Part shown: positions 7,693 to 33,666 of the stretch, one piece after another
How the letters are laid out: each line of letters begins with the position of its first letter
Numbering within the stretch: the stretch's first letter is position 1
Source of the DNA: Candidatus Rokuibacteriota bacterium
Lineage (GTDB): Bacteria > Methylomirabilota > Methylomirabilia > Rokubacteriales > CSP1-6
DNA length: 39,864 nucleotides
NCBI GenBank assembly: GCA_016209385.1
Contig: JACQWB010000289.1
Coordinates: 1 to 39,864, forward strand
Direction: 5' to 3'
The notes under the pieces: generated by a model
What the model was told of the DNA's origin: nothing
What the model saw: only the letters and a program-made list of their open reading frames with translations
Databases searched by the model: none
Made by a program: the position numbers and the translations under genes

Positions 7693-7708
7693 GTTCGCCT
7701 CCCTCCCC

Positions 7709-8698
7709 CTAGCGGGCCGTTACCGCAGCGCCCTTGCCCTTGCGGGCCAGGACGCGGTCGATGGCCCCGAGGATGTCCGCGGCCGTGAGGCCGTAGGCCC
7801 GGAACAGCTCCTCCGCACTGCCGGACTCGGCGAAGGCGTCCGGCAGGCCGACGAACTCCATAGGGACGGGCCGGCGCCGGGCGGCGGCCTGGGCCACCAG
7901 GCTCCCCAGCCCCGGCCGCGCCAGGTGCTCTTCGGCCACGACGATGGCCCCGGTTTCCTCGGCGGCCAACCCGACGGTCGCCTCGTCGAGCGGTTTGGCC
8001 GTGTGGCAGTCGATCACCCGCGCGTGGATTCCCTTACGCTCGGCCAGTTCCGCAGCCTGGCAGGCGACGGCCACCATGAGGCCGTTGGCGATGACGGTGA
8101 CGTCATCCCCGTCGGAAAGGGTCTTCGCACGGCCGAAAGAGAAGCGCTCGCCGGGGGCGTAGATCCGGAGAGCCCGCGGGCGTCCGACCCGGAGGTAGAC
8201 CGGGCCGTAGTGCTCCGCGGCCGCGCGCACGAGCGCCGCTGTCGCGACCTCGTCGGCGGGCACCGCCACCGTGAAGCCGGGCAGGCAGCAGGCCAGGGTG
8301 ATGTCCTCGATGCTCATCTGCGAGGGGCCGTCCTCGCCGAGGGAGATGCCGCCGTGGCTCCCCACGAAGTTCACGTTGAACTCCATGTAGGCGCAGCAGA
8401 TGCGGAGCTGCTCGTACCCCTTGCAGAGGAGGAAGGAGGCGAAGCTCGAAGCGAAGGGGATCAACCCACCCGCGGCGAGGCCGGCGGCGATCGAGCAGAG
8501 GTTCGCCTCGGCGATGCCCACGTCGAAGAACCGGTCCTTGAACTTCTTGCCGAACAGCGCGGTGTACGTGGACTTGGACAGGTCGGCGTCCAGGACCACG
8601 ATCCGGGGGTTCTCCTCGCCCAGCTCGGCCAGGGTGCGTCCGTAGGCCTCGCGGGTCGCGAGGCCGAGCTCCATCGGGGACGGCCAGCGCCGGATCAC
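7709..8698 (-). CDS. Transketolase, C-terminal subunit
   Basis: The 329-residue subunit carries the pyrimidine-binding and C-terminal domains of a split transketolase. The catalytic Glu that activates thiamine diphosphate lies in FFDVGIAEANLCSIAAGLA. SHGGISLGEDGPSQMSIEDI is the usual substrate-loop region. The frame stays open upstream to 9358, but that part overlaps the N-subunit gene. I place the start at GTG 8698, which overlaps the N-subunit TGA as GTGA, a typical translational coupling. The two chains together transfer two-carbon ketol units between pentose and hexose/triose phosphates. Confidence 0.94.
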   Translation of the reverse strand: MIRRWPSPMELGLATREAYGRTLAELGEENPRIVVLDADLSKSTYTALFGKKFKDRFFDVGIAEANLCSIAAGLAAGGLIPFASSFASFLLCKGYEQLRICCAYMEFNVNFVGSHGGISLGEDGPSQMSIEDITLACCLPGFTVAVPADEVATAALVRAAAEHYGPVYLRVGRPRALRIYAPGERFSFGRAKTLSDGDDVTVIANGLMVAVACQAAELAERKGIHARVIDCHTAKPLDEATVGLAAEETGAIVVAEEHLARPGLGSLVAQAAARRRPVPMEFVGLPDAFAESGSAEELFRAYGLTAADILGAIDRVLARKGKGAAVTAR

Positions 8699-10304: not shown

Positions 10305-11873
10305 CTACCGTGCGAACGGGTTCCGGTTGAACTTCAGGAGGGGCAACCGGATGCCGCCGACGAAGACCCGGTTGGCCCGGATCCGGAGCGGGGGCGCAAA
10401 CCCCGTGGCGCCGGCCGCGGAGACCACATCGTCCTGCTCCACCCCGTCGCCGCTGACGCCCAGCCCGCCCACGAGCTGCCCCGCCCTGTAGAGCGGCATG
10501 CTGCCGGGGAAGAACACGATGCCGCTCTGGTTCAGGTTGGCGGCCTGGCTCCCCTGCCTGCACGGCGCGGTGACGTCGTTCAGGTAGAGCTGGAAGAACG
10601 GGCCGGGGGCGGTCCCGTCGATGCCGGGCGGATAGAGGGGCTGGGCCCCGAAGCTGATCGTGCGGTTGGTGACCGCGGTCCCGATCGGCACGCCCGGCAG
10701 GTCCTCGGCCGTCCGGCTCTGGCCGCTGAAGTAGATCACGTTCCGCGCCTTCGCGACGGAGACGTCGATGCTGAAGATGGTCGCGTCGGGCATGCGGAAG
10801 AGTCCGAGGATCCGTCCCTGGAGGTCCGTGACCGCGATCACCATCCGGGTCGTGCTGCCGAGGGGGAGGCGGATCGCCGCGCGGGCCCGGTTGGCGATCG
10901 CGACAGCCTGGTTGACGATCTGCTCTACCTCCGCCGCGGTGAGCTCGGAGCTGCCGGTCGGGCCCACGAGCCAACCGTCGGCGACGCCCGCCGCGCCGCG
11001 CGGGCTGTCCAGCAGCCCCAGGAGCGTTCCGCTGAACACGCCGGGGCCGGTGCCCGGTGGCTGCCGCGTCTGGTTGACGAACGGCAGCGCGATCCCGTCG
11101 AGGAAGATCACGCCCGGCGACGGTACCCTCGGCCCGAACCGCGAGTCGGGGACGCTCCCGACGAAGGCCGCGAACTCGGCCAGGTCCGACGCGACGCCGG
11201 CGACCCCGATCCCGCCGACGACCTCGCCGTCCTTGAAGATCGGGACGCCTCCGCCGTTGACGGCCTCCGGGTCGCTGTCGAAGAGGTCGGCCTTGCCGGT
11301 GGCGATCCCGAGCCCGCACCCCCGCGTGTCGGAGCTGTTGCAGGGGAGCCCGTCATTGATCCCGAGGAGCGATCGGGCAGGGCTGATCTCCTTTCCCGGA
11401 TTGAAGGTCGTGTTCAGCGAGCACCCCCGGTTCGTGTTCTCGATCCCGTAGAGGGCGGCGTTTGCCTTGTTCCGGATCCCCGGCGGGAAGTGGATCCCGC
11501 TGATGAAGCGGACCGTTCGTGAGGAGAGGGGCGCCTGGTTGTTGCTGAAGAAGGCTCCCGTGCGGGCTAGGGCGATGGCCAACTCGAAGGCGTGCACCGG
11601 TTGTCCAAAGTTCCCGACCGCCGCACCGAGGAGGGGGGCGTCGGGTTTGAAGAAGAGCCCCAGCGGGGTTCCTTCGCGGTCGGTCACCGCGATGACCATG
11701 GTCGTGGCGTCGAGCGCCTCGGCCGCCCGGCGGATGATCGCGGTGACGTCGCTCGCGGTGAGGAAGGCGGCGGCCTCGGCGCGTCCTCCCGCGCCGCCGC
11801 CGAGCACGGCGAACAGCAGCCCGACGCAGCCCGCACGCACTGCCTTCGATGCCCGACACCTCGACTCGCTCAT
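10305..11873 (-). CDS. Secreted tandem HbpS/GlcG-type (DUF336-like) protein
   Basis: The 522-residue protein has a signal peptide (Arg-rich start, hydrophobic run, cleavage near GGRAEAAA). Two copies of the small HbpS/GlcG fold follow. Each copy shows the pattern MVIAVTDREGTPLGLF / MVIAVTDLQGRILGLF, then AVAKARN- or LARTGAFFSNN-like text, then GGVPIFKDGEVVGGIGVAG / GSMPLYRAGQLVGGLGVSGD. Single-domain relatives include haem-binding HbpS of Streptomyces and GlcG of glycolate operons. Long inserts with several Cys (GCSLN, PCNSSD, RGCGLG, APCRQG) are unusual and suggest disulfides. The start ATG 11873 has a GGAGGA site. It lies between the cytochrome operon and rpiA, in the same orientation. Haem binding or delivery near so many c-type cytochromes is attractive but unproven. 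Confidence 0.78.
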   Translation of the reverse strand: MSESRCRASKAVRAGCVGLLFAVLGGGAGGRAEAAAFLTASDVTAIIRRAAEALDATTMVIAVTDREGTPLGLFFKPDAPLLGAAVGNFGQPVHAFELAIALARTGAFFSNNQAPLSSRTVRFISGIHFPPGIRNKANAALYGIENTNRGCSLNTTFNPGKEISPARSLLGINDGLPCNSSDTRGCGLGIATGKADLFDSDPEAVNGGGVPIFKDGEVVGGIGVAGVASDLAEFAAFVGSVPDSRFGPRVPSPGVIFLDGIALPFVNQTRQPPGTGPGVFSGTLLGLLDSPRGAAGVADGWLVGPTGSSELTAAEVEQIVNQAVAIANRARAAIRLPLGSTTRMVIAVTDLQGRILGLFRMPDATIFSIDVSVAKARNVIYFSGQSRTAEDLPGVPIGTAVTNRTISFGAQPLYPPGIDGTAPGPFFQLYLNDVTAPCRQGSQAANLNQSGIVFFPGSMPLYRAGQLVGGLGVSGDGVEQDDVVSAAGATGFAPPLRIRANRVFVGGIRLPLLKFNRNPFAR

Positions 11874-12093: not shown

Positions 12094-13569
12094 CTAGCTG
12101 CCCGACCGTGGCGGTCTGGCCGCAGCAGGCTGAGGCGCGCCGGTCGCCAGTTCGCGGATCGTGAACGGCCCGTTCAGGTCACGCTCCCGCGTCTTGTCGT
12201 GGTAGAGGTGGCACTCGACGCAGCCGGAGCGCGTCCCGCCGCCGGCGCGGTGGCATTCGCGACAGGTCGCAATGGACGGTAGCAGCACGTCGGTGGTCGC
12301 CGTACTCTGCGCCGCCCTGTGGCACTCGGCGCATGCCAGCACCCGGTGGATGCCGTGGTCGAAGCGGCTGTGGGAGAGCCAGCGCACGGGGATCGCCGGG
12401 AGCGCCACCTCGGGGAGCTTCTCGGGCGCGGAGGTCAGCGTGTGGCAGAACTCGCACTTCTGCTTGAAGAGAGTCGCCTCCGCGCTCTGGATCTGCGCGG
12501 CGACCCATTGTTGGGGTGAGGCCACCTCCTCAGGCTCCTCGCGCCGGCCGACCCGGCCCCGCGGCCGCTCCGCTTCCTCCGCCCCCTTGATCAGCCCCAG
12601 CTCCTGGCAGCGCGTCTTCAACTCCTCGGTGGCGCGATCCCCGCCCCCACCTTCCGCCTTCTGAAGGGGCTGGCACTGCTCGAACGCCGACGTGAACGCC
12701 TCGCGCAGGAAGGCGCGGGTGATCAGCGGCCTGTCGTGGGGCACCTCCGCGCCGGGAAGACGCGCGTCGAAGTCGAGCGGGTGACAGGCCGGCCCGCAGT
12801 GGAGCGCGTAGCGGATCGGCGCGAGGTAAGCCTGCCGCGCGTCCGGCTGATGGCAGTAGCTGCAGGCGAGCTGGAGCCCCGCCGGCGTCGCGCTCAGCCC
12901 CTTCGTGCCCTTCCGGGCCTTCAGCTCGTCGACGCCCTTGAGCCCGGCCTTGAGGTGCTTCTGGTGGTTGAGCTTCATCTGGGCCGTGTCCTTGAGCCGG
13001 GCTGCGTCGTCGAGCCTGACGCGGAGCAGGCGGGTCTTGTCCTTCACGGTGACGGCGAACTCAGGGTGGCCGGCGTGGAAGCTCCGGATGCTCCGCTCGT
13101 AGCCGGTCGCCGCGTCCCTGGTCTTGAGATCGGCGTGACACCGGGTGCAGTGGCGGTCGCTCATCGACGCGAGCACCACGTGCCCCTCGTGCTCCACGTG
13201 GCAGGTGTTGCACCCGGGCGTGAAGATTTCGTTGGCGTGGTGGACGGGGGCGTCGTGGCACGTGAGGCACGCCTGCTCGGAGACGCGGAGCCAGAAGCCC
13301 CGGCGGGCCGGGCCCGCCTGGTTCGCTGCCTGGGCCGGGGCGTGGCACTGGCCGCACTGGAGGCCGAACATGGCGTGCGCCGTCGAGACCGGCCCGCTCG
13401 TGTAGATCGTCTGGTCACCGCGCGCGGCCAGCACGAGCAGCCAGCCGGCGGCGAGGGCCGGCGCGCCGACGGTCAGGATGAGCTTCAGGCGGCGGAACCG
13501 ATGGAGCTGCTTGAAGTAGTGCAGCTCGATGCGCTTGGCGCGGATCTTGGCCGTGTACCGGCGCAGCAT
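12094..13569 (-). CDS. Membrane-anchored decahaem cytochrome c
   Basis: The 491-residue protein has a basic N-terminus and one uncleaved-looking hydrophobic segment at about residues 29-49, then a periplasmic part. Nine CXXCH motifs (CGQCH, CLTCH, CNTCH, CTRCH, CSYCH, CEFCH, CAECH, CRECH, CVECH) and one CGPACH (CX3CH) would attach up to ten haems. They fall in two groups split by a charged, haem-free stretch rich in Glu/Arg/Gly at about residues 300-350. Scattered FHAGH, NHQKH and RFDHGIH are likely distal haem ligands. The ATG at 13569 has GGGAGG 4 bases upstream, 13 bases after the cytochrome b stop. It is the natural periplasmic acceptor or donor for that cytochrome b. I do not recognise a named family beyond multihaem cytochrome c. 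Confidence 0.88.
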   Translation of the reverse strand: MLRRYTAKIRAKRIELHYFKQLHRFRRLKLILTVGAPALAAGWLLVLAARGDQTIYTSGPVSTAHAMFGLQCGQCHAPAQAANQAGPARRGFWLRVSEQACLTCHDAPVHHANEIFTPGCNTCHVEHEGHVVLASMSDRHCTRCHADLKTRDAATGYERSIRSFHAGHPEFAVTVKDKTRLLRVRLDDAARLKDTAQMKLNHQKHLKAGLKGVDELKARKGTKGLSATPAGLQLACSYCHQPDARQAYLAPIRYALHCGPACHPLDFDARLPGAEVPHDRPLITRAFLREAFTSAFEQCQPLQKAEGGGGDRATEELKTRCQELGLIKGAEEAERPRGRVGRREEPEEVASPQQWVAAQIQSAEATLFKQKCEFCHTLTSAPEKLPEVALPAIPVRWLSHSRFDHGIHRVLACAECHRAAQSTATTDVLLPSIATCRECHRAGGGTRSGCVECHLYHDKTRERDLNGPFTIRELATGAPQPAAARPPRSGS

Positions 13570-13582
13570 CGGGCCTCCCCGG

Positions 13583-14515
13583 CTAGTACCTGAGCGCGGT
13601 CACGGCGTGCACCGCCGAGAGGAGCAGCAGCGCCATCGAGAGCGGCACGTGGACGAGGAGCCAGCCGTGCAGCCAGTGGTGCAGGCGCTTCTGCTGCGCG
13701 AGCTGCCGTCGCTCCTCGCAGATCGCCTCCAGCTCGTTCACCGTCTCGTGGAGCGAGGGCGGGAGCGCGGTCCGGAGGTGCTGGAACAGCACGGTCGTCT
13801 TGACCGGTGTCGCGAGACGCCCGTCGCGGGGCAGCTTCCTGTCGAGGAAGGCACGGATGTCCCGCAGATAAGCGTCCTTCAGGAGCGCGCTCCCGGCCGC
13901 GGGTCCCGCGGATGGCGGCCGCGGGCGGGGGGTCGGTCGCGGCGTGACCTGGCCCGCGTGAAGCCCGCCGCCGCCCCGTCGCGCGAGGGGCGCGCCCGGT
14001 GCCGTGACCGGCAGCGGGCCGCATACCGCCGCGGCCACCTCGTCGGCCTCGGCCTGGAGCTGGAGGACGACCGAGTCGATCTCCTCGTAGATCGTCTCCA
14101 GCGGAACCTGGACCATCATCACCCGCGGGAGGAACTGCTGCACGAGCAGGCCGAAGATCCCGCTCGCGACGACCGCGATGAACAGCCACATCAGCACCTG
14201 GGTCAGCGCCCCGCCGAACTCGAAGCCGCTGTGGAAGAGGACGAGCGGCAGGCTCAGTAGCCCGAACCAGATGTGCCCCCGCATCCAGGTCGAGCCCCTC
14301 CCGAGCCGCCACGTCGGCACCTTCCGCCGGGCCCCCAGCACGCCCGCGTACACCATCAGCGCGAACCCGGCGATGCCGTAGGCCAGGCCCGGCCAGCTCC
14401 CGCCGCTCGGTCCGTTGACCGAGGCCTGATGATAGGGGACGTACGCGATCGTCGCCCCGGCCAGGATGACGAGGCAGATCACGAGCCAGCGGGTGTGGGT
14501 CGCGTCAAGGATCAT
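13583..14515 (-). CDS. Integral membrane di-haem cytochrome b-like protein
   Basis: The 310-residue protein has about five hydrophobic helices: residues 9-28, 43-62, 81-99, 105-129 and 280-305. A long soluble, Pro/Gly/Arg-rich loop spans about 130-275. Helix 3 carries H81 and H95, and the last helix carries H289 and H303. Two His 14 apart in each of two helices is the classic arrangement for two b haems stacked across a membrane. H279, H280 and H283 add further candidates. No known family name is visible to me. The gene lies 18 bases after the Fe-S/cNMP gene and 13 bases before the decahaem gene, so it most likely carries electrons across the inner membrane, perhaps exchanging with quinone. 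The start ATG 14515 has GAGGG upstream. Confidence 0.82.
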   Translation of the reverse strand: MILDATHTRWLVICLVILAGATIAYVPYHQASVNGPSGGSWPGLAYGIAGFALMVYAGVLGARRKVPTWRLGRGSTWMRGHIWFGLLSLPLVLFHSGFEFGGALTQVLMWLFIAVVASGIFGLLVQQFLPRVMMVQVPLETIYEEIDSVVLQLQAEADEVAAAVCGPLPVTAPGAPLARRGGGGLHAGQVTPRPTPRPRPPSAGPAAGSALLKDAYLRDIRAFLDRKLPRDGRLATPVKTTVLFQHLRTALPPSLHETVNELEAICEERRQLAQQKRLHHWLHGWLLVHVPLSMALLLLSAVHAVTALRY

Positions 14516-14533: not shown

Positions 14534-16693
14534 TCACCGAGCTCCCGGTCCCAGCTTCTCAGCGAAGAACTTCACCGGCTCCACCCGCAGCGCCGCCTCG
14601 TGGGGGCAGGCGTTCACGCAGGCGGGCTCGGCGTACTCCCGGCTCAGGTCGCAGGTAGTGGCCTTCTCCTTGACCACGGCCTTCCTGCGGCCCGGTCGCT
14701 CGGGGTCGTCAACCTCCACGCTGAACGCGTGGAGGTTGATGTTGCCGTAGGGGCACTGCTGGGCGCACAAGCCGCAGCCGATGCACCAGTCCTCGATCAT
14801 GATCTCCAGGGAGTCGCGCCGGCGGATCGAGCCCACCGGGCAGCCCACCATGCAGAGCGGATCGCGGCAGGAGTAGCAGGAGGTCGCGACGAGGTACTTG
14901 TCGAAGCGCAGGCCGTCGCGGAGGAGCCGCGTGATCCCGTCGTGCGCTGCGGCGCAGGCCCGCACGCACAGGTCGCACCGCGTGCAGCGCTCGAGGTCGA
15001 TCAGGAGGAGGCTCTGCGCCTCCATGAGCCCCTTGTTGAGGAAGTCGTCGAGCTGAACGGTGGTGACCGTCTCGAGCCGCTTCGCGTCGGCGTCGAGGCG
15101 GGCCCGGGCAATTTCGGTGAGGCTCCGCCGAATGTCCGGGAACCGCTCGAGCATCGCGTGGAAGTCCTCGGCGCGAATGCGGACCACCTCGACGTGGTCC
15201 AGGGCGCTACACGTCGCGGTGCGGACGCCTTCGCCGAGCAGGCCTATCTCGCCGAAGTAGTAGCCGCGTCCCAGGTACGACACGACTAGCTCGCCGCCGG
15301 GGAAGGCCTGGGTGACCTTCACAAACCCGGTGCGGATCAGGTAGAAGCTGATCGCAGGGTCGCCCTGGCGGAAGATCACCTGGCCGGGGTCGAAGCGGAG
15401 CAGCTCGACTTGGTCGCGCAGGCGCGCGAGGAACTCGTCGGTCAGGCCAGCGAAGATGGGCACGCTGCGGAGATGCGTGTCCAGCGCCCGCTCGCGGTAT
15501 GCCCGATCGAGCTGCGCCCGGAAGTGCTTGCTCTTCTGGAGCATGTGCAGGACGTTCCGCAGCATTTCCAGCAGCTCGGTCTCCTCGGCGGCCCGGACCG
15601 TTGCCGAGCGCGGGTAGAAGCTCATGCAGGTCATCTCGCCGAAGAGGTCGCCCGCCTGAAGGTGGGCCACCGGGTTGTCGTACTCGAGGTCCACGGGCGC
15701 GTCGATCGGGATCCAGCGACGCGGGGGCTGGTCCCGGGGGTCGTCCCGGCTCCCGACGAGGCTCGTGAGGCGCTGGAAGAAGTTCGACACGCCGCCCTTC
15801 GATCGCCGGCCCCCGCTCTTGACGTGGGCCATCGGCGCGGAGATGAAGACGTCCACCTTGCCCCGGAGGATGTAGAAGGCCGTGGAGCCGAACTCGCCTT
15901 CGCGACAGATGATCTCGCCGGGCTGGAACTTCCGGCGGAGGACGGCGCCCCGGTTCAGATCGAGGAACGTCCCCGACACCCCCTGGAAGATCGGGAACGC
16001 CAGGAGCTGGTCCGGTTCCATCTCCTCGCCCTGGGGCAGCTCCACGTCCAGGACCTTCTTGTTGGTGAGCGCGCCGGTGGGGCAGGAGACCATGCACTCG
16101 CCGCACGACACGCACGAGGACTGCCCCATCGGCAGGTCGGCGTCGAAAGCGATGCCGGCGGCATAGCCCTTGCCCGTGCGCCCGATGACGAAGTTGTGCT
16201 TGATGTCCGCGCAGCCGCGGATGCACCGGTCGCACAGGATACACGCGGTGTGATCGACGCTGATGATGAGCGACGAGGCGTCGGCGCCCCGTGGGGAGCG
16301 GTACCGGGAGAACCGGGGCTCGCGCAGGCCTTCCCGGGCGGCCAGGAGTTCCAGCTCACAGTCTCCGGTGGCCTGCTGCCGCGCGCACGGCGCCGGGTGG
16401 TCCGCGAGGAGGATCTCCAGGAGCGTGCGGCGCGCCCGCCGGGCCCGCTCCGTGTCGGTCAGCACGATCATCCCGTTCTCGACCTGGCGGATGCAGGAAG
16501 CGGCGAGCACCCGGGCGCCCTGCACCTCGACGGAGCACACGCGGCAGACCCCCACCGGGTTCATGTGCGGGGCGTGACAGAGGGTGGGGATGTCGATCCC
16601 GAGCCCTCGGGCGGCATCATAGATCGTCGTGCGCGTGGGCACGATCGCCGCCTTGCCGTCGATGATAAGCTCGACCTGCTGCTCCGCGCTCAT
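14534..16693 (-). CDS. Fe-S / double cNMP-domain / Fe-S fusion protein (NuoG/HoxU-like plus DmsB/HybA-like)
   Basis: From ATG 16693 the product is 719 residues. Residues 1-80 are a 2Fe-2S ferredoxin with C39, C50, C53 and C67. Residues 99-112 match the His-Cys cluster of NuoG/HoxU (H99, C103, C112) but Q106 replaces one Cys. C151/154/157/161 and C194/197/200/204 bind two 4Fe-4S clusters. Residues about 235-385 and 405-530 are two cNMP folds with phosphate-cassette motifs FGEMTCMSFYPRSATV and FGEIGLLGEGVRTATC. The first has a roughly 50-residue insertion. Residues 560-700 form a four-cluster ferredoxin of DmsB/HybA/NrfC type, where S684 stands for a Cys. An in-frame GTG at 16714 is an alternative start; neither has a clear ribosome site. 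Placed after NuoEF and before cytochrome b, it probably carries electrons from flavin to membrane haem, with the cNMP folds as structural or regulatory modules. Confidence 0.9.
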   Translation of the reverse strand: MSAEQQVELIIDGKAAIVPTRTTIYDAARGLGIDIPTLCHAPHMNPVGVCRVCSVEVQGARVLAASCIRQVENGMIVLTDTERARRARRTLLEILLADHPAPCARQQATGDCELELLAAREGLREPRFSRYRSPRGADASSLIISVDHTACILCDRCIRGCADIKHNFVIGRTGKGYAAGIAFDADLPMGQSSCVSCGECMVSCPTGALTNKKVLDVELPQGEEMEPDQLLAFPIFQGVSGTFLDLNRGAVLRRKFQPGEIICREGEFGSTAFYILRGKVDVFISAPMAHVKSGGRRSKGGVSNFFQRLTSLVGSRDDPRDQPPRRWIPIDAPVDLEYDNPVAHLQAGDLFGEMTCMSFYPRSATVRAAEETELLEMLRNVLHMLQKSKHFRAQLDRAYRERALDTHLRSVPIFAGLTDEFLARLRDQVELLRFDPGQVIFRQGDPAISFYLIRTGFVKVTQAFPGGELVVSYLGRGYYFGEIGLLGEGVRTATCSALDHVEVVRIRAEDFHAMLERFPDIRRSLTEIARARLDADAKRLETVTTVQLDDFLNKGLMEAQSLLLIDLERCTRCDLCVRACAAAHDGITRLLRDGLRFDKYLVATSCYSCRDPLCMVGCPVGSIRRRDSLEIMIEDWCIGCGLCAQQCPYGNINLHAFSVEVDDPERPGRRKAVVKEKATTCDLSREYAEPACVNACPHEAALRVEPVKFFAEKLGPGAR

Positions 16694-16710
16694 ACACGCT
16701 CGGAGGGAGG

Positions 16711-16791
16711 CCACCCACGCCTTCGGCGCGGGTACCCGCCCCTTCCGATACCTCCCCCCAAGGGTTGCGCTGGCGAAGCCAGCGCTCGAAG
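16711..16791. repeat. Intergenic repeat: 28-base module plus reversed double-hairpin element, copy D
   Basis: Bases 16711-16738 are identical to 38353-38380 (28 bases, core ACGCCTTCGGCGCGGGTACC), and the following CCCTTCCGAT-type text is also similar. Bases 16751-16791 are an inverted copy of the composite element, with hairpin GCGCTGGC-GAA-GCCAGCGC at 16767-16785. Compared with copies A-C, one base pair in the stem differs on both arms, which keeps pairing. It separates the NuoEF gene from the Fe-S/cNMP gene inside one minus-strand run. Confidence 0.75.
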
Positions 16792-16873: not shown

Positions 16874-18556
16874 TCAGGCCATGGCGCAGACGCCCGAAGG
16901 GCAACGCCTCCGGGCGAGGTGCTCCTCGACCTCGTCCCGGAAGTGGGTGAGGACCGAGCCGATCGGGTTGGGCGCCACCTGGCCGAGGCCGCAGATCGAC
17001 GTGAGGGCGAGCGCCTCGGACAGCTCGCCGATCAAGTCCAGGTCCTCGCGCCGGCCACGCCCCCGGCTGATGTCGGTCAGGATGTCCACCATCTTGGCGG
17101 AACCGACCCGGCACGGCACGCACTTGCCGCACGACTCGTTCTTGAAGAAGCGCACGGCGTTCAGCGCCATGTCCAGCATGCACGTTCCCTCGGCGCAGAC
17201 GACGATCGCTCCCGAGCCCAGCATGGAGCCCGCGTCGGCGAGCGACTTGAAATCGAGCGGGACGTCGAGCATGGCAGGCGGGAGGAACCCGGACGACGGC
17301 CCGGAGGGTGCGAAGGCCTTGAGGCGGCGGCCGCCCGAGACGCCCCCGGCGCGATCGAAGATGAGCTCGCGGGTCGGGGTGCCCATCGGGATCTCGTAGA
17401 CGCCGGGGCGGGCGACGTGGCCGCTCACGCCGACGAACTTGAGGCCGGGAGCCCCGGACCGGCCCTCCGCCTTGAACCACTCCACGCCCTTCAGGAGGAT
17501 CGGCGGGACGAAGGCGAAGGTCTCGACGTTGTTGATGACCGTCGGCTTGTTGTAGAGCCCGTGAGTGCCCGGGAACGGCGGCTTGTTGCGGGGCTCGGCG
17601 CGCCGGTCCTCCAGGGCCTCGAGGAGCGCCGACTCCTCCCCGCAGATGTAGCCGCCGGGGCTCACGAAGATCGAGAGGTCGAAGCTCACGCCGGAGCCCA
17701 GGAGGTCCCGGCCGACGAGCCCCGCGCGCTGGCACTGCTCGAGCTCCTGCTCCAGGATCACCCGCTGGGCCTCGTACTCGTGGCGGATGTAGATGATGCC
17801 CGTCCGCGCCCCCGTCACGACGCCGGCGAGGACCATCCCTTCGATGACAAGGTGGGGGATATGCTCCATGATGAACCGATCCTTGATCGTGCCCGGCTCG
17901 CTCTCGTCGGCGTTGCACACGACGTACTTCGCGTCCCCCGGCGCGTTCCGGACGATCTCCCACTTGAGACCGGTCGGAAACCCTGCCCCGCCCAGCCCGC
18001 GCAGGCCGCTCTCCTTCAGCGCGGCGAGGGTCCCGGCGGCGTCGCGGCTCGCGAGTAGCTTTCGCAGCGCCTCATAGCGCTGGCCTCCCGCGTACGGATC
18101 GATCCGCAGCGGAGCCTCCGGCCGTTGCACCTCAGGGTGCGGAAAGCGCCGTCCTGCGGCGGCGGCCTCGACGTGCGAGTAGAGGGAGGCGGAGGTGAGC
18201 CGCGCGACGATGGCGTCGTTGACGGACGCGGCCGGGGCGCAGTCGCACTGGCCCAGGCACGAGACCTCCCGGATCGCCACGCCGCTAGGGCCGAGCCGGG
18301 CGACGCGGGCTTCCACGGCGCTCCGGAGATCGTCGGCGCCGTTGAGGTGGCAGGAGAGGTCGGCGCACACGCGGAGGTCGATGGCGGGCGGCGGGGCAAG
18401 CCGGAAGTGGGGGTAAAAGCTGGCCAATCCCTGGAGGTGATAGAGCGGGGTCTGGGTTCGCTCGGCCAGAGCCCGCAGCTCGGCTGCGGGCAGATAGCCA
18501 TGGGTGTCTTGGATCGCCCGAAGCTCCTCGATGATCACTGGCCGCGCCCCTGGCAC
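16874..18556 (-). CDS. NuoE-NuoF fusion: NADH-oxidising flavin/Fe-S subunit
   Basis: The 560-residue product joins a NuoE-like thioredoxin-fold 2Fe-2S domain (residues 1-130; C64-x4-C69 and C100-x3-C104) to a full NuoF/HoxF-like domain. The latter has the FMN/NADH loop GLRGLGGAGFPTGLKW, PGGYICGEESALLEALE, and the 4Fe-4S ligands ESCGKCVPCR plus a later Cys in TSICGLGQ. It would take a hydride from NADH (or NADPH) to FMN and pass single electrons through Fe-S clusters. No other complex I genes (nuoA-D, H-N) or hydrogenase subunits are nearby, so this is a stand-alone diaphorase, as in HoxF, NAD-dependent formate dehydrogenase or bifurcating enzymes. The start GTG 18556 has only a weak ribosome site. 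A consensus-like promoter lies 31-60 bases upstream. Confidence 0.93.
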   Translation of the reverse strand: MPGARPVIIEELRAIQDTHGYLPAAELRALAERTQTPLYHLQGLASFYPHFRLAPPPAIDLRVCADLSCHLNGADDLRSAVEARVARLGPSGVAIREVSCLGQCDCAPAASVNDAIVARLTSASLYSHVEAAAAGRRFPHPEVQRPEAPLRIDPYAGGQRYEALRKLLASRDAAGTLAALKESGLRGLGGAGFPTGLKWEIVRNAPGDAKYVVCNADESEPGTIKDRFIMEHIPHLVIEGMVLAGVVTGARTGIIYIRHEYEAQRVILEQELEQCQRAGLVGRDLLGSGVSFDLSIFVSPGGYICGEESALLEALEDRRAEPRNKPPFPGTHGLYNKPTVINNVETFAFVPPILLKGVEWFKAEGRSGAPGLKFVGVSGHVARPGVYEIPMGTPTRELIFDRAGGVSGGRRLKAFAPSGPSSGFLPPAMLDVPLDFKSLADAGSMLGSGAIVVCAEGTCMLDMALNAVRFFKNESCGKCVPCRVGSAKMVDILTDISRGRGRREDLDLIGELSEALALTSICGLGQVAPNPIGSVLTHFRDEVEEHLARRRCPSGVCAMA

Positions 18557-18707: not shown

Positions 18708-20732
18708 ATGCGCGGTAGGATCTCCGGGCCCAGCGGTGAACCCCTGACGGCGGGGGAGGAACTGATCACGACTGTCGAGCGACGCTGGGGAGCTGTGTTC
18801 ACCGCGCTGATCCTCTGTACGAGCCCCGGCACGAGCTCGGCGGAGCCGCTGGATCCTCCGGTAGCGAGTCAGTTGAGGGCAGGACCCGTCCCGTGGGGTG
18901 CCGCGTCCCCGTCGGGCGCGGCGCCGTCCTGGTTGGCCCAGCGCCTCCGGCGGCCGGGCGCGGAGGAGCCGAAGGAGGAGGCACCGCAGGAGAAGCCCGC
19001 CCCCCAGCCGTTCGTTCAGCCGCCGGTCGAGCCGCCCGTGGGATTTGCCGGGCGCTCCCTCCTCCGTCCGCGCGCCACGCAGACGAGCCCCGAGTTCGTC
19101 CCCCTGGAGGACCGCTGGCGCATCGGGTTTCCCGAGTGGAAGCGGTACGAGCGCCGCATCGAGGCGCCGTACGTCGAGGGGCGCTGGTGGGATCCCTACA
19201 ACCAGAACGTCCTCAAGGGCGACTTCCCGGTCCTCGGCCAGCACATCTTCCTGAGCCTGTCGGCGATCAGCGACACCCTGTTCGAGCTGCGACGCATCCC
19301 GCTCCCCAGTAACGTGAGCGCCGAGGACCCCGACAGCGCCGAGTTCTTCGGGTCCGGGGACCAACGCTTCGTCAACCAGAACTTCATCCTGTCGCTCGAG
19401 GTGTTCAAGGGGGACACCGCGTTCAAGCCGCGAGATTGGGAGTTCAGGATCACGCCGGTCTTCAACCTCAACTTCCTGGACGTGCAGGAAACCGGGGTCG
19501 TGAACATCGATGTCCGCGAAGGGACGACGCGGAAGGAGGTCCACAGCACGTTCCAGGAGCTGTTCGTCGAGTACCACCTGGGCGACCTGAGCCCCAACTA
19601 TGATTTCGTCTCAAGCCGCTTCGGCATCCAGGGCTTCACCAGCGACTTCCGCGGCTTCATCTTCAGTGACAACACGCTCGGCTTCCGGCTCTTCGGCGAC
19701 CTCCAGTCGAACCAGAACCAGTTCAACGCGGCCTACTTCCGCCCGCTGGAAAAGGACACCAACAGCGGGCTCAACCGGCTCTTCGACACCCGGGGCCAGC
19801 ACCTCGCGATCCTGAACTACTTCAGGCAGGACTTCCTGTGGCTCGGGTACACGGCCCAGCTGAGCTTCCACTACCTCCACGACAGCGGCGGGGTCCACTT
19901 CGACGAGAACGGCTTCCTCGTCCGGCCCGCCGCCGTCGGGTTCGTGCGGCGGACCCGGCCGAACACCGTGGACGTGGCGTACCTGGGCTGGACGGGCGAC
20001 GGCCACATCGGGCCGCTGAACCTCACGCACGCGTTCTACCAGGCGCTCGGCCGCGACACGTTCAACCAGATCGCCGGCCAGCCGCTGGACATCAACGCGC
20101 AGATGGCCGCCCTGGAGCTGTCGGTGGATCTGGACTGGCTGAGGCCCAAGGCGTCCTTCTTCTGGGCCTCCGGTGACTCCAAGCCGCTCGACGACCGGGG
20201 CCGCGGCTTCGACTCGATCTTCGACAACCCCAACTTCGCCGGCGGGGGATTCAGCTACTGGCTCCGCCAGGGGCTCCCGCTGACGGGGACCGGGCTCGAG
20301 CTGGTGGGCCGCAACAGCCTGCTCCCGAGTCTCCGGGGCAGCAAGATCGAGGGGCAGCCGAACTTCGTCAACCCGGGCCTCTTCCTGTTCAACGTCGGGA
20401 GCGACGTCGAGCTGACCCCCAAGCTCAAGGCGTCGCTCAACCTGAACTTCCTCCGGTTTCACCGGACCGCGCCGCTCGAACTCCTGCTCTTCCAGCCGGA
20501 CATCCGCCACGATATCGGGTTCGATTACAGCCTCGGGTTCCGGTACCGGCCGTTCCTGAACGAGAACGTGACCATCACGGCGGGGGCTTCGGCGCTGACG
20601 ATCGGTGGGGGCTTGAAAGACGTGTACACGTTTGACACATTGGAGTTCGGGGCGGGCGGGTTGCAGGTCGTCAAGAACGACCCGTTCGATCACCTGTACT
20701 CGGCCTTCCTGGCCGTCACGTTCACCTACTGA
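18708..20732 (+). CDS. Outer-membrane beta-barrel (porin-like) protein, first conduit
   Basis: The 674-residue frame contains a signal peptide at about residues 25-45 (RRW, hydrophobic run, cleavage near SSA). A Glu/Lys/Pro-rich linker (about 82-110) follows, then a long run of alternating strands rich in Tyr/Phe/Asn. It ends in AVTFTY, the aromatic C-terminal signature recognised by the BAM machinery. The first 100 residues after the linker resemble a plug or periplasmic part. The start is uncertain: ATG 18708 lacks a ribosome site and overlaps a candidate -10 box, while a strong GGGGGAGGA at 18752 is followed by no ATG/GTG at normal distance. The decahaem lipoprotein begins 24 bases later. 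By analogy with MtrAB/PCC complexes the barrel could house or dock a cytochrome, but I see no sequence match to MtrB. Confidence 0.82.
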   Translation: MRGRISGPSGEPLTAGEELITTVERRWGAVFTALILCTSPGTSSAEPLDPPVASQLRAGPVPWGAASPSGAAPSWLAQRLRRPGAEEPKEEAPQEKPAPQPFVQPPVEPPVGFAGRSLLRPRATQTSPEFVPLEDRWRIGFPEWKRYERRIEAPYVEGRWWDPYNQNVLKGDFPVLGQHIFLSLSAISDTLFELRRIPLPSNVSAEDPDSAEFFGSGDQRFVNQNFILSLEVFKGDTAFKPRDWEFRITPVFNLNFLDVQETGVVNIDVREGTTRKEVHSTFQELFVEYHLGDLSPNYDFVSSRFGIQGFTSDFRGFIFSDNTLGFRLFGDLQSNQNQFNAAYFRPLEKDTNSGLNRLFDTRGQHLAILNYFRQDFLWLGYTAQLSFHYLHDSGGVHFDENGFLVRPAAVGFVRRTRPNTVDVAYLGWTGDGHIGPLNLTHAFYQALGRDTFNQIAGQPLDINAQMAALELSVDLDWLRPKASFFWASGDSKPLDDRGRGFDSIFDNPNFAGGGFSYWLRQGLPLTGTGLELVGRNSLLPSLRGSKIEGQPNFVNPGLFLFNVGSDVELTPKLKASLNLNFLRFHRTAPLELLLFQPDIRHDIGFDYSLGFRYRPFLNENVTITAGASALTIGGGLKDVYTFDTLEFGAGGLQVVKNDPFDHLYSAFLAVTFTY

Positions 20733-20756: not shown

Positions 20757-23700
20757 ATGGCGCGGCTGGGCGGACACACGACGGCGCGGGCGCTGTGGAC
20801 GGCGCTGGTGGTGATCGGCGCGGTTGCCGCACTGGTCGCAGCCTGCACGATGTCCCCGGGTCCTGAGCCCGGACGGCAGGTGGTCCCCCGGCCCGCGGCG
20901 GCGCCCGCCACCGAAGGCCCGCCCCTCAGCAAGCAGACCCAGGCCGACGCCGATCGGAAGAGCGCCGGGTGTGTCACCTGCCACACCAAGACCGACTCCC
21001 CGTCCATGCACATGGCGACCACGGTGAAGCTCGGGTGCATCGACTGCCACGGCGGCCGCGTCGACGTCCGCCTCCCGGCGGGCGCGGCCAAGGACTCCCG
21101 CGAGTACGACGAGGTGAAGAAGCAGGCCCATGTCGAGCCGCGCTTCCCCGACGCCTGGAGGAGCTCGGCCAACCCGGTCCGGTCCTACACGCTGCTCAAC
21201 CGCGAGAGTCTCGAGTTCCTCCAGTTCGTGAACCCGGGTGACCTCCGCGTGGCGCGGCGGACCTGCGGGCCCGAGGGGTGCCATCCGGCCGAGGTGTCCC
21301 AGGTCGAGAAGAGCATGATGACGACGGGTCCCATGCTCTGGGCCGCGGCGCTCTACAACAACGGAGGCTACCCGATCAAGCAGCCGCGCTTCGGCGAGAG
21401 CTACGGTCCCGAAGGCGCCCCCCAGCGCGCGGTGACCGTGCCGCTCCCAACGCCGGAGGAGACGGCGAAGAAGGGCGTCCTCCCCTACCTCGATCCGCTG
21501 CCCCGGTTCGAGATCACCCAGCCGGGCAACATCCTGCGCGTGTTCGAGCGGGGCCAGCGCCGCCCCCTGGAGCTCGGGGTTCCGACGCTCGACGAGGACC
21601 CGGGCCGTCCCGCCAACCGGCTCAGCGCGCGCGGGCTCGGCACGCTCAACCGGACCGACCCGGTGTGGCTGAACCTACAAAAGACGCGGCTCTTCGACCC
21701 CGCGCTCTCGTTCCTGGGGACCAACGACCATCCGGGCGACTACCGCTCGAGCGGCTGCTCCGCTTGCCACGTGATCTACGCCAACGACCGGTCCCCGGTC
21801 CACTCCGGACCGTTCGCGAGGTTCGGGAACCTGGGTCGGAGCGACACGGCGGACCCGACGATCCCCAAGGGCGAGTCCGGCCACCCGATCAAGCATGTCT
21901 TCACCAACTCCATCCCGTCGAGTCAGTGCGTCGTGTGCCACCACCACCCGGGGACCACGGTGACCCAGAGCTACTTCGGCTACACGTGGTGGGACAATGA
22001 GACCGACGGCGAGCTGATGTATCCGCCGACGGAGCGCCGGCTCGCGGCGTGGCAGGTCGACGCGATCCAGCGCGCCAACCCCGAGGGCTCGGCGCTGCGC
22101 GGTCTCTGGTCCGATCCCGAGTTTCTCGCCAACGTCGTTGACCTCAACCCGAAGCTCAAGCGGACCCAGTTCGCGGACTTCCACGGCCACGGCTGGGTCT
22201 TCCGCGGCGTCTACAAGCAGGACCGGAAGGGGAACCTGCTCGACGCCAAGGGGAGCGTCGTTGCCCACGACGACCCGGAGCGCTTCAAGAAGGCGGTCCA
22301 CTTGAAGGACATCCACCTCGAGAAAGGGATGCACTGCGCGGACTGCCACTTCAAGCAGGACGTCCACGGCAACGGCAAGCTCTACGGCGAGACGCGCAAC
22401 GCGATCGAGATCGACTGCATCGACTGCCACGGGACCATGCAGCAGCGGACCACGCTCAAGACATCCGGGCCCGCGGCGCCGAAGGGAGGGACCGAGCTGG
22501 CCCAGCTCCAGACGCCCTTCGGCCAGCGGCGCTTCGTCTGGCGCGGCGACAAGCTGATCCAGCGGTCCATGGTGACCAAGGACCTCGAGTGGGAGGTCGT
22601 CCAGACGGCCGACACCGTCAACCCCAACTCGGAGTGGGCGAAGGCCCACCCCGGCGAGAGCCTGCGCTCGCGCCTGGCCAAGACGCTCCGCAAGGACGGC
22701 AAGACCTGGGGCGACGTGCCGGACACGGAGCAGGAGCTGGCCCATGCCAACGCCCGGATGACGTGCTTCTCCTGCCACACCGCGTGGGTGACGAGCTGCT
22801 TCGGCTGCCACCTGCCGATGAAGGCCAACGAGCGCAAGCCGCTCCTCCACAACGAGGGGGACGTGCTGCGGAACTGGACGCCGTACAACTTCCAGACGCT
22901 GCGCGACGACGTCTTCATGCTGGGCGTCGACGGGACGGTCACAGGGAATCGGGTCGCGCCCGTCCGCTCAGCCTGCGCGGTGCTGGTCGGCTCCCAGAAC
23001 GCGAACCGCGAATGGGTCTACGCGCAGCAGCAGACGGTCTCGGCCGAGGGCTTCGCCGGCCACGCGTTCAGCCCGTTCGTGCCCCACACCGTCCGCGCCA
23101 CCGAGACCAAGATGTGCACCGACTGCCACGTCGCGGCGAAGAACGACAACAACGCCTGGATGGCGCAGGCGCTGATGCAGGGGACGAACTTCTACAACTT
23201 CCTGGGGCGCTACGTCTACGTCGCCGAGGGCGGGCACGGGTTCGAGGCCGTCGCCGTTACCGAGCGGGAGGAGCCCCAGGCGGTGATCGGCAGCTACCTG
23301 CACGAGGTGGCCTACCCGACCGGCTACGGGAAGCACAAGGAGCGCGGGAGCGTCCTGAAGGAGAGCGTCCACCACCGCGGCCGGGATGTCCTCGGCCTGT
23401 TCGGGCGCGACGAGATCCTCAGCATCCAGCTCCGCGGCGAGTACCTCTACACCGCGAACGGGCCCGGCGGGTTCCGCGCCTACGACGTGGCCCAGGTCGA
23501 CCAGAAGGGCTTCTCCGAGCGGATCGTCACGGCGCCCGTCTCCCCGCTCGGGCAGCGCTTCTACGTGCGGACCAGGTACGCAACGGCGGTCGCGTCGCCC
23601 ACGACCCTGGCCGTGGACCCGACCCGATCGCGCCGCCCCGAGAACCAGGAGCAGCCGATCCACCCGCTCTACGCCTACCTCTACGTGACCGACCGCGAGG

Positions 23701-24656
23701 AGGGGCTGGTCGTCATCGGCAACCGTGCCGGAAGCCGCAACCGTCCCGGGGTCGCGACGCTCCTGGACGGCGACCCGACGAACAACTTCCTGGAGCGCGC
23801 GGTCACCTTCAACCCGGGCGGGATCCTGAACGGGGCCGTCAACCTCACCATCGCGGGGACCTACGCCTACGTCCTCGCCGACCGGGGGCTGGTCGTCGTC
23901 AGCATCGACGATCCCCTGAAGCCCAGGGTCGTGGCCGAGGTGGGTCCGCCGGCCATTGTGAAACCCCGGGCGGTCGCCGTGCAGTTCCGCTACGCGTTCG
24001 TCACCGATGCGGAGGGGCTGAAGGTCGCGGACGTCACCTTCCCCGAGCGCCCGCGTCTGCTCCCCGGGGCGGTGGTCCGGCTGAGCGACGCCCGCGGGCT
24101 CTACCTGGCGCGAACCTACGCCTACGTGGCGGCCGGCGCTCAGGGGCTTGCGATCATCGATATCGAACGACCCGAGCGGCCGGTTCTGGACCAGCTCTAT
24201 ACCGCCGACGGCGCCATCAACGACGCCCGCGACGTGAAAGTGGGCATGACCAACTCGAGCCTGTTCGCCTACGTTGCCGACGGCAAGAACGGCCTTCGGG
24301 TGATCCAGCTGACCTCCCCGCGCGACACGCCCGGCAATTTCGGGTTCAGCCCGCGGCCGGGCCCGCGCCTGATCGCCACCTACCCGACCCGGGGGCCCGC
24401 TCTGGCCGTCTCCAAAGGCACCGACCGGGACCGCGCCGTGGACGAGGGCGGCAACCAGATCGCCGTGTTCAATCGGCTGGGCTCCCGGCCGTTCAACCTG
24501 GCCGAGATGCAGCGGCTCTACCTGCGGGGCGGCCAGCTCTACGCGGTCAGCGACGAGCCTCCGGCTCCGCCGCGCCCGCCCCGTGAGGAGCTGAAGAAGG
24601 AAGAAAAGGAAGAGGAAGCGCCCGCGCCGAGGCTCCGGCGTCCCGGCCGGGAGTGA
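20757..24656 (+). CDS. Decahaem cytochrome c lipoprotein with C-terminal LVIVD beta-propeller
   Basis: The 1,299-residue protein has a signal peptide ending in LVAAC, a likely lipobox, so it is probably lipid-anchored in the outer membrane. Residues 70 to about 790 hold nine CXXCH motifs plus CGPEGCH (CX4CH). From about 800 on there are seven LVIVD-type repeats, for example [31 protein letters not shown] and [16 protein letters not shown], predicting a seven-bladed propeller. The tail is a charged Pro/Glu/Lys stretch. The haem part is clearly paralogous to the 11-haem protein at 27035-29941: both share NPGDL..., CGP(E/S)GCH, PGDYR..GC.ACHV.Y, TIPK.E..HP.KH and the paired CH-x-x-W region. ATG 20757 has GGAG upstream. 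A surface-facing electron-transfer protein paired with the barrel is the likeliest role. Confidence 0.9.
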
Positions 24657-24696: not shown

Positions 24697-25956
24697 ATGT
24701 TGCAGCTCGCCGCTTGTCGGGGTGTCGCGCTGTCCGCTGCGGCCGTCGCGGTGTTCGTCGCGGGGTCGCTCCTGCCCGGCGCCGCCTGGGTGAGCATCGC
24801 CCACGCCCAGGCGAAGGAGGCCTACAAGTACACCGGCGCCGCCTCGTGCGGGGCGTCCAACTGCCACGGGAGCACGAAGCCGAAGGCCGATTACCCGAAG
24901 CTCAACGAGAACGTGGTCTGGTTCCAGAAGGACAAGCACGCCAAGGCCTTCGCCACGCTCACCAACGAGAAGCTGAAGTCGGGCGTCCGCCCCTCCAAGA
25001 TCGCCGGGAATCTGAAAATTGCTAAAGCCGAGACCAGCGACCGGTGCCTGGACTGCCACGCGGTCAACGTCAAGAAGGAGCTGAGAGGCCCCAAGTTCGA
25101 CATCAGCGAGGGCGTTCACTGCGATGGCTGCCACGGCCCCGCGGAGAAGTGGCTGGAGCCCCACGCGGAGAAGGGCTGGACCCACGAGCAGTCGGTGAAG
25201 GTGGGGATGTACGACACCAAGGACCTGCTCCTCCGGGCCGACAAGTGCGTGTCCTGTCACCTCGCCATCGACCACGAGTTGGTGACCGCCGGCCACCCGG
25301 ACCTCCTCGCCTTCGAGCTGGACACCTTCAGCGCCTCGATGCCGCCGCACTGGCGGGACAAGGGGACCTGGTTCGGGACCCGCGCCTGGGCGACGGGCCA
25401 GGCGATCTCGCTCCGCGAGGCGATGAAGCAGCTCGCGGACCGTGCCGGCAAGAACGCCCCGGAGAAGCTGCTCGCCGAGGCCTGGCAGAAGGGGCGCGGC
25501 CACGCCGCGGTCTTCCGCCACCTGCTCGGCCTCGTCGCGCCGGACGCGCAGAAGGCGCTGGCTCAGGACCTGGGGACCCTGGCCGACCTCCTCGGCAAGG
25601 GCGCCGGAGACCGCGCGAAGATCGCTGCCACCGCGGGCCAGGCGGCCAAGACGGTGGGCCAGCTGGCCGCGAGGATCGCGACCCGGGAGTTCGACAAGGC
25701 GGGGACCCAGGCGCTCATCCGGAGCATCGCGGGCGACGGGGAGAGTATCTCGGCGGTCGGGATCCGCGGCGCCGAGCAGGCCGCCATGGCGCTCGACCGG
25801 CTCTACACCACCTACTCGAAGTCACCCGGCGAGAAGTCGGACAAGGCGCTGCAGGGCGTGCTCGACAAGCTCTTCGGTGACATCGAGGATCCGAAGAAGT
25901 TCGACGCGAAGCAGTTCGCCGCGGAGCTGAAGGCGTTCCAGGCGGGTTTCAAGTAA
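24697..25956 (+). CDS. Periplasmic tetrahaem cytochrome c (c554-like)
   Basis: The 419-residue protein has a Sec signal peptide (cleavage near AHAQA). Haem motifs are CGASNCH (CX4CH), CLDCH, CDGCH and CVSCH within the first 190 residues, an arrangement like cytochrome c554 and related NiR/HAO partners. GVHCDGCHGPAEKWLEPH and VSCHLAIDHELVTAGHPD are typical of that group. Residues 200-419 are haem-free and mostly helical, rich in Ala/Lys/Leu, with no family I recognise. The start ATG 24697 has GGGGGT upstream and lies 40 bases after the decahaem lipoprotein gene, so it is likely the third gene of that operon. It would shuttle electrons in the periplasm between the inner membrane and the outer-membrane module. 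Confidence 0.85.
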   Translation: MLQLAACRGVALSAAAVAVFVAGSLLPGAAWVSIAHAQAKEAYKYTGAASCGASNCHGSTKPKADYPKLNENVVWFQKDKHAKAFATLTNEKLKSGVRPSKIAGNLKIAKAETSDRCLDCHAVNVKKELRGPKFDISEGVHCDGCHGPAEKWLEPHAEKGWTHEQSVKVGMYDTKDLLLRADKCVSCHLAIDHELVTAGHPDLLAFELDTFSASMPPHWRDKGTWFGTRAWATGQAISLREAMKQLADRAGKNAPEKLLAEAWQKGRGHAAVFRHLLGLVAPDAQKALAQDLGTLADLLGKGAGDRAKIAATAGQAAKTVGQLAARIATREFDKAGTQALIRSIAGDGESISAVGIRGAEQAAMALDRLYTTYSKSPGEKSDKALQGVLDKLFGDIEDPKKFDAKQFAAELKAFQAGFK

Positions 25957-25968: not shown

Positions 25969-27033
25969 TCACCGGGCACCGCTGCTGGGCCAGGCCCGGA
26001 GCGCCAGCTCCTGGTCGATGACCCGCTTGAAGCTGGCGAAGGGCTGAGCGCCCTCCAGCAGCCGGCCGTTGATGAAGAAGGTCGGCGTCCCCGTGACGCC
26101 GGCCTCTTTCGCGTCGGCGAGGTCCTCGGCCACTCGCGCCGCCGTCTTCCCACCGTCGAGACACGCCCTGAAAGCCCGCACGTCCAGGCGCAGCTCCTCC
26201 GCCAGGGACCCGAGCTTTTCCGGGCCGAGCTGGGGCGCGCTGGCGAAGACCCGCGCGTGGTAGTCCCAGAACCTTCCCTGCTCGCCGGCGCACTCCGCCG
26301 CCTCGGCGGCGAGCCTCGCGTGGGGATTCCGCTCGAGGGGGAAATGGCGGTAGACGCGCCTGACTTCCTTCGGGTACGCCTCGAGCACCTGTTGCAGGAC
26401 GACCTGCGCTCTGGCGCAGAACGGGCACTGGAAGTCCGAGAACTCGACGATCGTCACCGGCGCGTGCTTCGGCCCCCTGGCGGCGGCCCCGGGGACGACC
26501 AGATAGTCTGACGCGATCGGGGTCGGAGGCTCCAGGTGCACGCGGACGCGAACCCTGGTTCTCAGCTCCTCCACGAGTCGCCGCGTCAGCTCGGCCTCCT
26601 TCGCTTGCTCCAGATAGCGCCTGAACGCTTCCCTGGCCGCCGCCTCCGGCGCCTGGACCGAGTGCTTGCGCTCCCGATAGAAGGCGTCCAGCTCCTGATC
26701 CGTCACGCGGACTCTCGCCTTGACTTCGGTCTCGAGCAGCCGCTGGACCGGGATGCCGCGCCGCGCGGCCTCCCGCTCGAGGAGCTTGTCTTCGATGAGC
26801 TTGTCCAGCGTCTGGCGCTGGAGCTGGTAGATCTCCTGCTTCAGTCGATACAGCCGGTCGCCGAGCGCTTTATCGACGGCGTCGGCGGTGATGGCGTCCC
26901 CGTCCACCTCGGCGAGCACGCGAGTCTCCCCCTGGCCTCGCGGCGGGCCTGCCCACGCGCCGGCGACCGCCAGGACCGCGGCCACGGCTGCAGCCAGCGC
27001 GAGCCACCGTCGAGCGTGGGGTGTGCCGCTCAT
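25969..27033 (-). CDS. Exported DsbA-like thioredoxin-fold protein with SurA-like N-terminal helices
   Basis: The 354-residue protein has a signal peptide (cleavage near WAGPPRG). Residues 40-165 are helical and resemble the N-terminal part of SurA/parvulin-type chaperones (VDGDAITADAVDKALGDRLY). Residues 185-354 are a DsbA/thioredoxin_4 domain with active site C203-P-F-C206 and the cis-Pro loop GVTGTPTFFINGRLL. It starts one base after the stop of the 11-haem gene (TGAgATG), so the two are translationally linked. Its likely job is thiol redox or chaperone work during maturation of the multihaem proteins, particularly the neighbour that has a 14-Cys non-haem insert. Its 3' end faces the tetrahaem gene 12 bases away. 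Confidence 0.88.
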   Translation of the reverse strand: MSGTPHARRWLALAAAVAAVLAVAGAWAGPPRGQGETRVLAEVDGDAITADAVDKALGDRLYRLKQEIYQLQRQTLDKLIEDKLLEREAARRGIPVQRLLETEVKARVRVTDQELDAFYRERKHSVQAPEAAAREAFRRYLEQAKEAELTRRLVEELRTRVRVRVHLEPPTPIASDYLVVPGAAARGPKHAPVTIVEFSDFQCPFCARAQVVLQQVLEAYPKEVRRVYRHFPLERNPHARLAAEAAECAGEQGRFWDYHARVFASAPQLGPEKLGSLAEELRLDVRAFRACLDGGKTAARVAEDLADAKEAGVTGTPTFFINGRLLEGAQPFASFKRVIDQELALRAWPSSGAR

Positions 27034-27034
27034 C

Positions 27035-29941: not shown

Positions 29942-30051
29942 CCTCAGCCTTTCCGTGTCAACCGCCTTGGTGGGACCACGATGCGAACCCGGTCTCCGCA
30001 GCAGTGTCGAGCGGACCGGCGACAAAAGTCAAGAGGCTCGCCGCAGCCATG

Positions 30052-31518: not shown

Positions 31519-31531
31519 CCCACGCGACCGG

Positions 31532-33607: not shown

Positions 33608-33666
33608 GCGGCTCCCCCCTTTGGTAGATCGTGTGCGGCCAGTTGGCCTGGGTAGGCTTGCAACAC

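Follow-up and report, generated by a model that had tools for sequence, protein, structure and literature searches.

The window, that is, the whole stretch of 39,864 nucleotides that was analysed, contains at 14534..16693 on the minus strand a gene for a fused protein of 719 aa, in which a HoxU/NuoG-like Fe-S N-module, tandem CNB domains and a four-site ferredoxin follow one another. The open reading frame at 14534-16714 (minus strand) encodes 726 aa from a GTG codon, and the ATG at 16693, which gives the 719-aa product, agrees with the onset of homology among relatives; residues of the fused protein are numbered throughout in the 726-aa frame. Upstream on the same strand lies a NuoE-NuoF fusion (16874..18556; 560 aa), a NADH dehydrogenase module with an FMN domain, a 2Fe-2S and a 4Fe-4S site. 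Downstream, and also on the minus strand, are a membrane cytochrome b (13583..14515) with two invariant His pairs, about five transmembrane helices and a predicted cytoplasmic helical domain, an N-terminally anchored decahaem cytochrome c (12094..13569) with nine CXXCH motifs and one CX3CH, and a protein with two HbpS-like domains and a signal-like N-terminus (10305..11873). Divergent from the genes for NuoEF, the fused protein, cytochrome b and the decahaem cytochrome, three genes are read from the plus strand. They encode a predicted outer-membrane beta-barrel (18708..20732), with no Pfam hit and judged porin-like by its N-terminus, its aromatic C-terminus and its position; a multihaem lipoprotein (20757..24656) with nine CXXCH and one CX4CH, LVIVD repeats and partial likeness to ExtM; and a secreted tetrahaem cytochrome c554-like protein (24697..25956), which is a frequent neighbour.

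Further along the window, a second multihaem cluster at 25969-33169 on the minus strand encodes a SurA/DsbA-like protein, a multihaem cytochrome of 996 aa, a protein of 488 aa in which 15 CXXCH motifs occur and a barrel-like protein of 545 aa. At 33582-35708 on the plus strand, an NDH-2-like N-terminal frame (33582-34451) runs into a frame (34144-35148) in which a cNMP domain is joined to a NapC/NirT tetrahaem domain, and a protein with TM and cNMP parts (34848-35708) follows. Since some relatives have NapC as an independent gene and the cNMP part in another frame, about 550 aa long, the copy in the window may be truncated or frameshifted.

In the fused protein, the N-module (16049..16681, minus strand, as are all its domains) holds a 2Fe-2S site, a His-Cys site with one Cys missing and two [4Fe-4S] sites. 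Pfam recognised Fer2_4 at residues 12-88 (53 bits), Fer4_7 at 158-215, with the 2x[4Fe-4S] region at about 150-217, and NADH-G_4Fe-4S_3 at 95-134, the last with 23 bits and thus under the 27-bit cut-off. The two CNB domains, CNB-A (15530..15952; cassette FGEMTCMSFYPRSATV) and CNB-B (15125..15427; cassette FGEIGLLGEGVRTATC), were matched by the cNMP_binding model PF00027 in three pieces with 129 bits, against a cut-off of 27.5; a variable insertion at about 293-345 interrupts the first domain, and the second spans 440-524. The C-terminal four-site ferredoxin domain (14579..15007), of DmsB/DsrO/HycB-like type, was covered by several Fer4 models, with four ferredoxin motifs at about 572-710, and its fourth site reads CxxS...C...C. 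The AlphaFold model of the full-length protein had a mean pLDDT of 68 and a pTM of 0.47; the CNB and 2Fe-2S parts were confident and the rest low.

The domain search and about 90 relatives with the full architecture confirmed the single-chain order of 2Fe-2S, His-Cys site, 2x4Fe-4S, cNMP, cNMP and 4x4Fe-4S claimed in the initial annotation, and its placement of the gene between NuoEF and a membrane cytochrome b was also correct. These relatives come from Rokubacteria, Acidobacteriota and Planctomycetota and from independent assemblies, and because so many of them share the fusion, we rejected an assembly error or chimera as its origin. Misreading of a formate dehydrogenase or hydrogenase was likewise rejected, as the fused protein has no catalytic domain; an N-module relative encoded elsewhere in the same genome is a protein of NAD-formate-dehydrogenase type without CNB domains. 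The full architecture was found in 9 of the 95 Rokubacteria/Methylomirabilota genomes searched, own genome included. The carriers in Acidobacteriota are many, many of them soil organisms, with the cultured Granulicella aggregans among them, and those in Planctomycetota include records labelled Kuenenia. A short form, which consists of CNB-CNB-ferredoxin only, also exists, and one form or the other was present in 18/347 Acidobacteriota and 19/294 Planctomycetota genomes of the samples. One Rokubacteria genome (G062) carries a second, divergent fused relative (L128:4841-9538) that has no His-Cys site and whose disrupted C-terminus is followed in frame by a SodB-like sequence.

Conservation of the cluster ligands was analysed in an alignment of 90 relatives, 87 of which cover the His-Cys site. 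The 2Fe-2S ligands C46, C57, C60 and C74 were all conserved, the pair of [4Fe-4S] sites in the N-module, which are of the Nqo3/HoxU type, had all eight Cys 100% conserved, and in C-terminal sites one to three the Cys were essentially invariant (C625 in 87/89). The N5-type His-Cys site reads H106..C110..Q113..C119 in the fused protein; H106, C110 and C119 were present in all 87 relatives and the second Cys in none of them, its position being occupied by Q (82%), E (13%) or H (6%), whereas HydA1 and a formate dehydrogenase have the full HxxxCxxCxxxxxC. At the fourth C-terminal site, Ser691 of the fused protein corresponds to Cys691 in 84% of relatives and to Ser in 16%, and the four-site ferredoxin has 15 of 16 Cys and a score below the NCBIfam cut-offs. 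Complete sites number six, namely the 2Fe-2S site, two in the N-module and three in the C-terminal domain, and two more, each without one ligand, may hold a cluster, for example [3Fe-4S]. The 'up to eight clusters' proposed earlier for this protein thus stands as an upper bound, but not as a number of complete sites.

The named families nearest to the N-module were HydA-type hydrogenase, HoxU and NuoG, all far below the curated NCBIfam cut-offs (for HoxU, PRK07569, 162.6 bits against 333; for NuoG, TIGR01973, 122.3 against 470). Its best PDB matches were HydA1 and NAD-dependent FdhA, with NuoG also among the nearest solved structures, and a fold search gave formate dehydrogenase and HydABC. 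The N-module of complex I (NuoE-NuoF-NuoG N-terminus), HoxFU, HydABC and NAD-dependent formate dehydrogenase resemble our system in the NuoEF partner and in the order of 2Fe-2S and 2x[4Fe-4S]; however, in the fused protein the N-module is followed by CNB-CNB-ferredoxin and not by an H-cluster, NiFe or Mo domain, and its family lacks the second Cys of the His-Cys site. As for the C-terminal domain, subunits of the DmsB/DsrO/HycB type have four Cys groups in the same order, with DsrO and DmsB from NCBIfam and HycB3 and formate hydrogenlyase subunit 2 from the PDB among the nearest matches, but the domain studied here is below every curated NCBIfam cut-off, lies behind CNB domains and has one ligand Cys changed to Ser in its own clade.

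The neighbours of the full and short forms were then compared. NuoEF adjoined the fused form in 89/91 loci and the short form in 0/18, and no separate N-module was seen near short forms. On this evidence of gene order, the N-module is the entry point for NADH, because its presence and that of NuoEF go together. Cytochrome b adjoined both the fused form (80/94) and the short forms (11/13 and 8/8), and the same was true of the decahaem cytochrome (80/87, and 12/13 and 7/8, respectively). A tree of 75 rows based on the shared core showed at least three gains or losses of the N-module. From these neighbour counts, the lack of a separate N-module beside short forms and the repeated gain or loss, we conclude that, at the level of genomes, this is a conserved modular family, with CNB-CNB-ferredoxin, cytochrome b and the decahaem cytochrome as its core and the N-module plus NuoEF as a NADH plug-in. 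The barrel/multihaem pair was found near only about 40% of fused loci, a proportion that partly reflects short flanks. The two-domain HbpS-like protein occurred near the cluster in 29/73 loci.

Taking together the architecture, the ligand residues, the gene order, the coupling of N-module and NuoEF and the cyclase linkage described below, all of which are read from sequence, we propose that the fused protein is probably the cytoplasmic electron-carrying subunit of a NADH-driven electron exporter controlled by cyclic nucleotides (cAMP or cGMP). In the complex and direction of flow that we infer, NuoEF would oxidise NADH via FMN, and the electrons would enter the 2Fe-2S/4Fe-4S N-module and pass across the CNB-A/CNB-B hinge to the C-terminal four-site ferredoxin, which would dock on the cytoplasmic side of cytochrome b. 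Through the two b haems, the electrons would then cross the membrane and reach the anchored decahaem cytochrome, from which they would move on to the porin/multihaem pair of the outer membrane in loci that have one, or else to another acceptor in the periplasm. The predicted outer-membrane pair next door makes outward electron export the likelier purpose. The earlier idea that the protein is a long electron wire is supported.

The features of cytochrome b are consistent with such a path. H81, H95, H289 and H303 were invariant across 52 relatives, and the residues of the pairs H81/H95 and H289/H303 are each 14 apart. The model (pLDDT 88) showed helices at 6-31, 41-63, 74-96 and 103-136 and a long helix at 253-309, with an Arg-rich loop at 62-76 and a charged stretch at 130-282, both of which should be cytoplasmic. 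With the loop and the stretch on that side, one haem would lie near each membrane face, and from the His pairing and topology the H81/H289 haem would be on the cytoplasmic side and the H95/H303 haem on the periplasmic side. No relative in the PDB was found by sequence profile, and a fold search gave none that was significant; some members of the family show weak similarity to Ni_hydr_CYTB, DUF4405 and Ferric_reduct. Such likeness would also suit a cytochrome b that exchanges electrons with the quinone pool, as part of a regulated NADH:quinone or quinol-linked complex with the decahaem cytochrome as a side branch, and di-haem cytochromes b often bind quinone. In addition, the inputs of extracellular electron transfer known from the inner membrane, CymA, CbcL and ImcH, are multihaem cytochromes of the c type that are linked to quinol (PMC6295460). 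However, the haem pairs are positioned such that together they would cross the membrane, and nearly every locus has the decahaem gene next door; we regard a quinone-linked role as rather unlikely.

We now turn to the CNB domains. Among the fused relatives, E360 and R369 of the CNB-A cassette were 100% conserved, and E489 and R498 of the CNB-B cassette were conserved in 99% and 98%, respectively. The first cassette had a mean column identity of 0.94, the top value of 289 windows of 21 columns over residues 230-540. In a fold search, the tandem domains matched PKG I-beta first (E 5e-19), followed by yeast, trypanosome and mammalian PKA regulatory subunits. The PKA regulatory subunit and PKG likewise have two tandem CNB domains with intact cassettes, but the fused protein has no kinase, is coupled to Fe-S domains, shows about 20% identity to them and contains the CNB-A insertion.

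If the CNB domains are in use, the cell must make their ligand. Class III cyclases were found in 40/40 genomes of a linkage sample, selected because the cluster lies on long contigs in them, and in 29/30 carriers of another sample; the own genome gave about 19 hits. Such a cyclase lay within 15 kb of the cluster in 21 of the 40 genomes, where genome size and the number of cyclases would predict 0.87, and in the 17 genomes with a single cyclase it was the linked one in 12, against 0.12 expected. As a control, a cyclase was within 15 kb of other NuoF-family genes in 0/62 cases in 38 of the same genomes, whereas the NuoF of the cluster had one at this distance in 19/38 (Fisher p 3e-10, with the caveat that these p-values ignore shared ancestry). 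The linked cyclases vary, with CHASE2 proteins downstream or upstream, FHA-GAF proteins upstream, a zinc-ribbon/AAA/TPR protein in the Rokubacterium L076 and an undefined sensor in the planctomycete L079; given this variety of domains and positions, the linkage probably has more than one origin. We take it as an independent indication from genomes that such regulation is real. No class III cyclase was seen on the window's own contig. Another linked cyclase is found in the planctomycete G504, where 4 bp separate the gene for a cyclase-FHA protein (L169:4759-5778) from a downstream fused relative (5782-8262) that has no adjoining NuoEF.

The conservation of the cassettes at 98-100% agrees with the claim of the initial annotation that both cNMP folds keep the Glu and Arg of the cassette, and together with the linked cyclase genes it supports the suggestion made there that ligand control of the chain is conceivable. 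As the CNB domains lie between the two Fe-S halves, binding of a nucleotide could alter the contact or distance of the halves and in this way open or close the wire. In terms of energy, we reason that electron flow from NADH to c-type haems is downhill and by this route would bypass energy conservation at a quinone site, which would make tight switching sensible. Whether a second messenger from a neighbouring sensor cyclase, for instance one with CHASE2 or FHA-GAF domains, gates transmembrane NADH-driven electron export directly and allosterically via tandem PKA-like CNB domains is, in our estimation, an even question.

With the same electron chain, the CNB domains could instead be structural spacers or dimerisation parts that have lost ligand binding. 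The insertion in CNB-A is poorly conserved, and the CNB folds are retained in divergent relatives that have lost the cassette arginines, in keeping with this alternative. In these Acidobacteriota short forms (L155-L159 and L168), the cassette Glu is kept, the Arg of CNB-A is replaced by Gln and CNB-B has no Arg, and the cytochrome b and decahaem neighbours remain. Ligand binding may have been lost in these, the most divergent of the short forms, and would then not be universal in the wider family. Cyclase absence in the genomes of the Arg-lacking relatives followed no clear pattern (none in G108, one weak in G272 and two to four in the others). In the fused family, however, the Glu and Arg of both cassettes are nearly invariant, no other stretch of the CNB region is as well conserved as the first cassette, and cyclase genes occur near the cluster far more often than chance would give. 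Degenerate CNB domains were not favoured after these two tests, and a purely structural role is unlikely.

Electrons might also run inward, from a donor in the periplasm or outside the cell, for example Fe(II), through the decahaem cytochrome and cytochrome b to the fused protein and NuoEF, which would then make NADH. In NAD-reducing hydrogenases and in formate dehydrogenases, N-modules of the HydA1/FdhA kind operate in either direction. CymA- and CbcL-type proteins occur in metal reducers and in metal oxidisers alike (PMC6295460). Against inward flow, NADH is such a strong reductant that making it from NAD with electrons at the usual potentials of periplasmic haems would be uphill. Moreover, many hosts are soil Acidobacteriota, one of them a cultured Granulicella, and these are not known as lithotrophs; we consider inward transfer quite unlikely. 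That the CNB domains sense a ligand other than a cyclic nucleotide, such as haem or a redox gas, as in some CRP-family proteins, is very improbable: many CRP-fold sensors have a swapped ligand and an HbpS-like gene is nearby, but the canonical Glu/Arg cassette, usually lost from such sensors, is retained in the fused protein, and cyclases are linked.

As a NADH-driven exporter, the system would be similar to CymA, CbcL or ImcH with porin-cytochrome conduits in having an inner-membrane cytochrome, a periplasmic multihaem protein and a predicted outer-membrane barrel/multihaem pair, and would differ from them, as they are described (PMC6295460), in its cytoplasmic NADH/Fe-S input with CNB domains and in its separate cytochrome b and decahaem cytochrome. 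Cyclic nucleotides and electron export are likewise tied in Shewanella, where cAMP-CRP is reported to control extracellular electron transfer genes; that control is transcriptional, whereas the CNB domains considered here are within the electron carrier itself. Each of the constituents, namely CNB domains, N-modules, four-cluster ferredoxins and porin-cytochrome systems, is known already, and their combination was in no family model or paper that we found: the Pfam and NCBIfam models and the open-licence literature searched gave no match to the fusion, although an earlier description elsewhere is possible. The same literature gave nothing on LVIVD repeats paired with multihaem proteins.

In the usual view, the control of respiratory chains lies with substrate, redox state and gene expression. 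If the proposed mechanism is true, a cyclic-nucleotide switch inside the electron path would amount to post-translational control of electron flow by a second messenger. In addition, it would equip soil Rokubacteria, Acidobacteriota and Planctomycetota with an input to extracellular or periplasmic electron transfer that is fed by NADH and not by quinol; none of the three known input families, CymA, CbcL and ImcH, offers this (PMC6295460).
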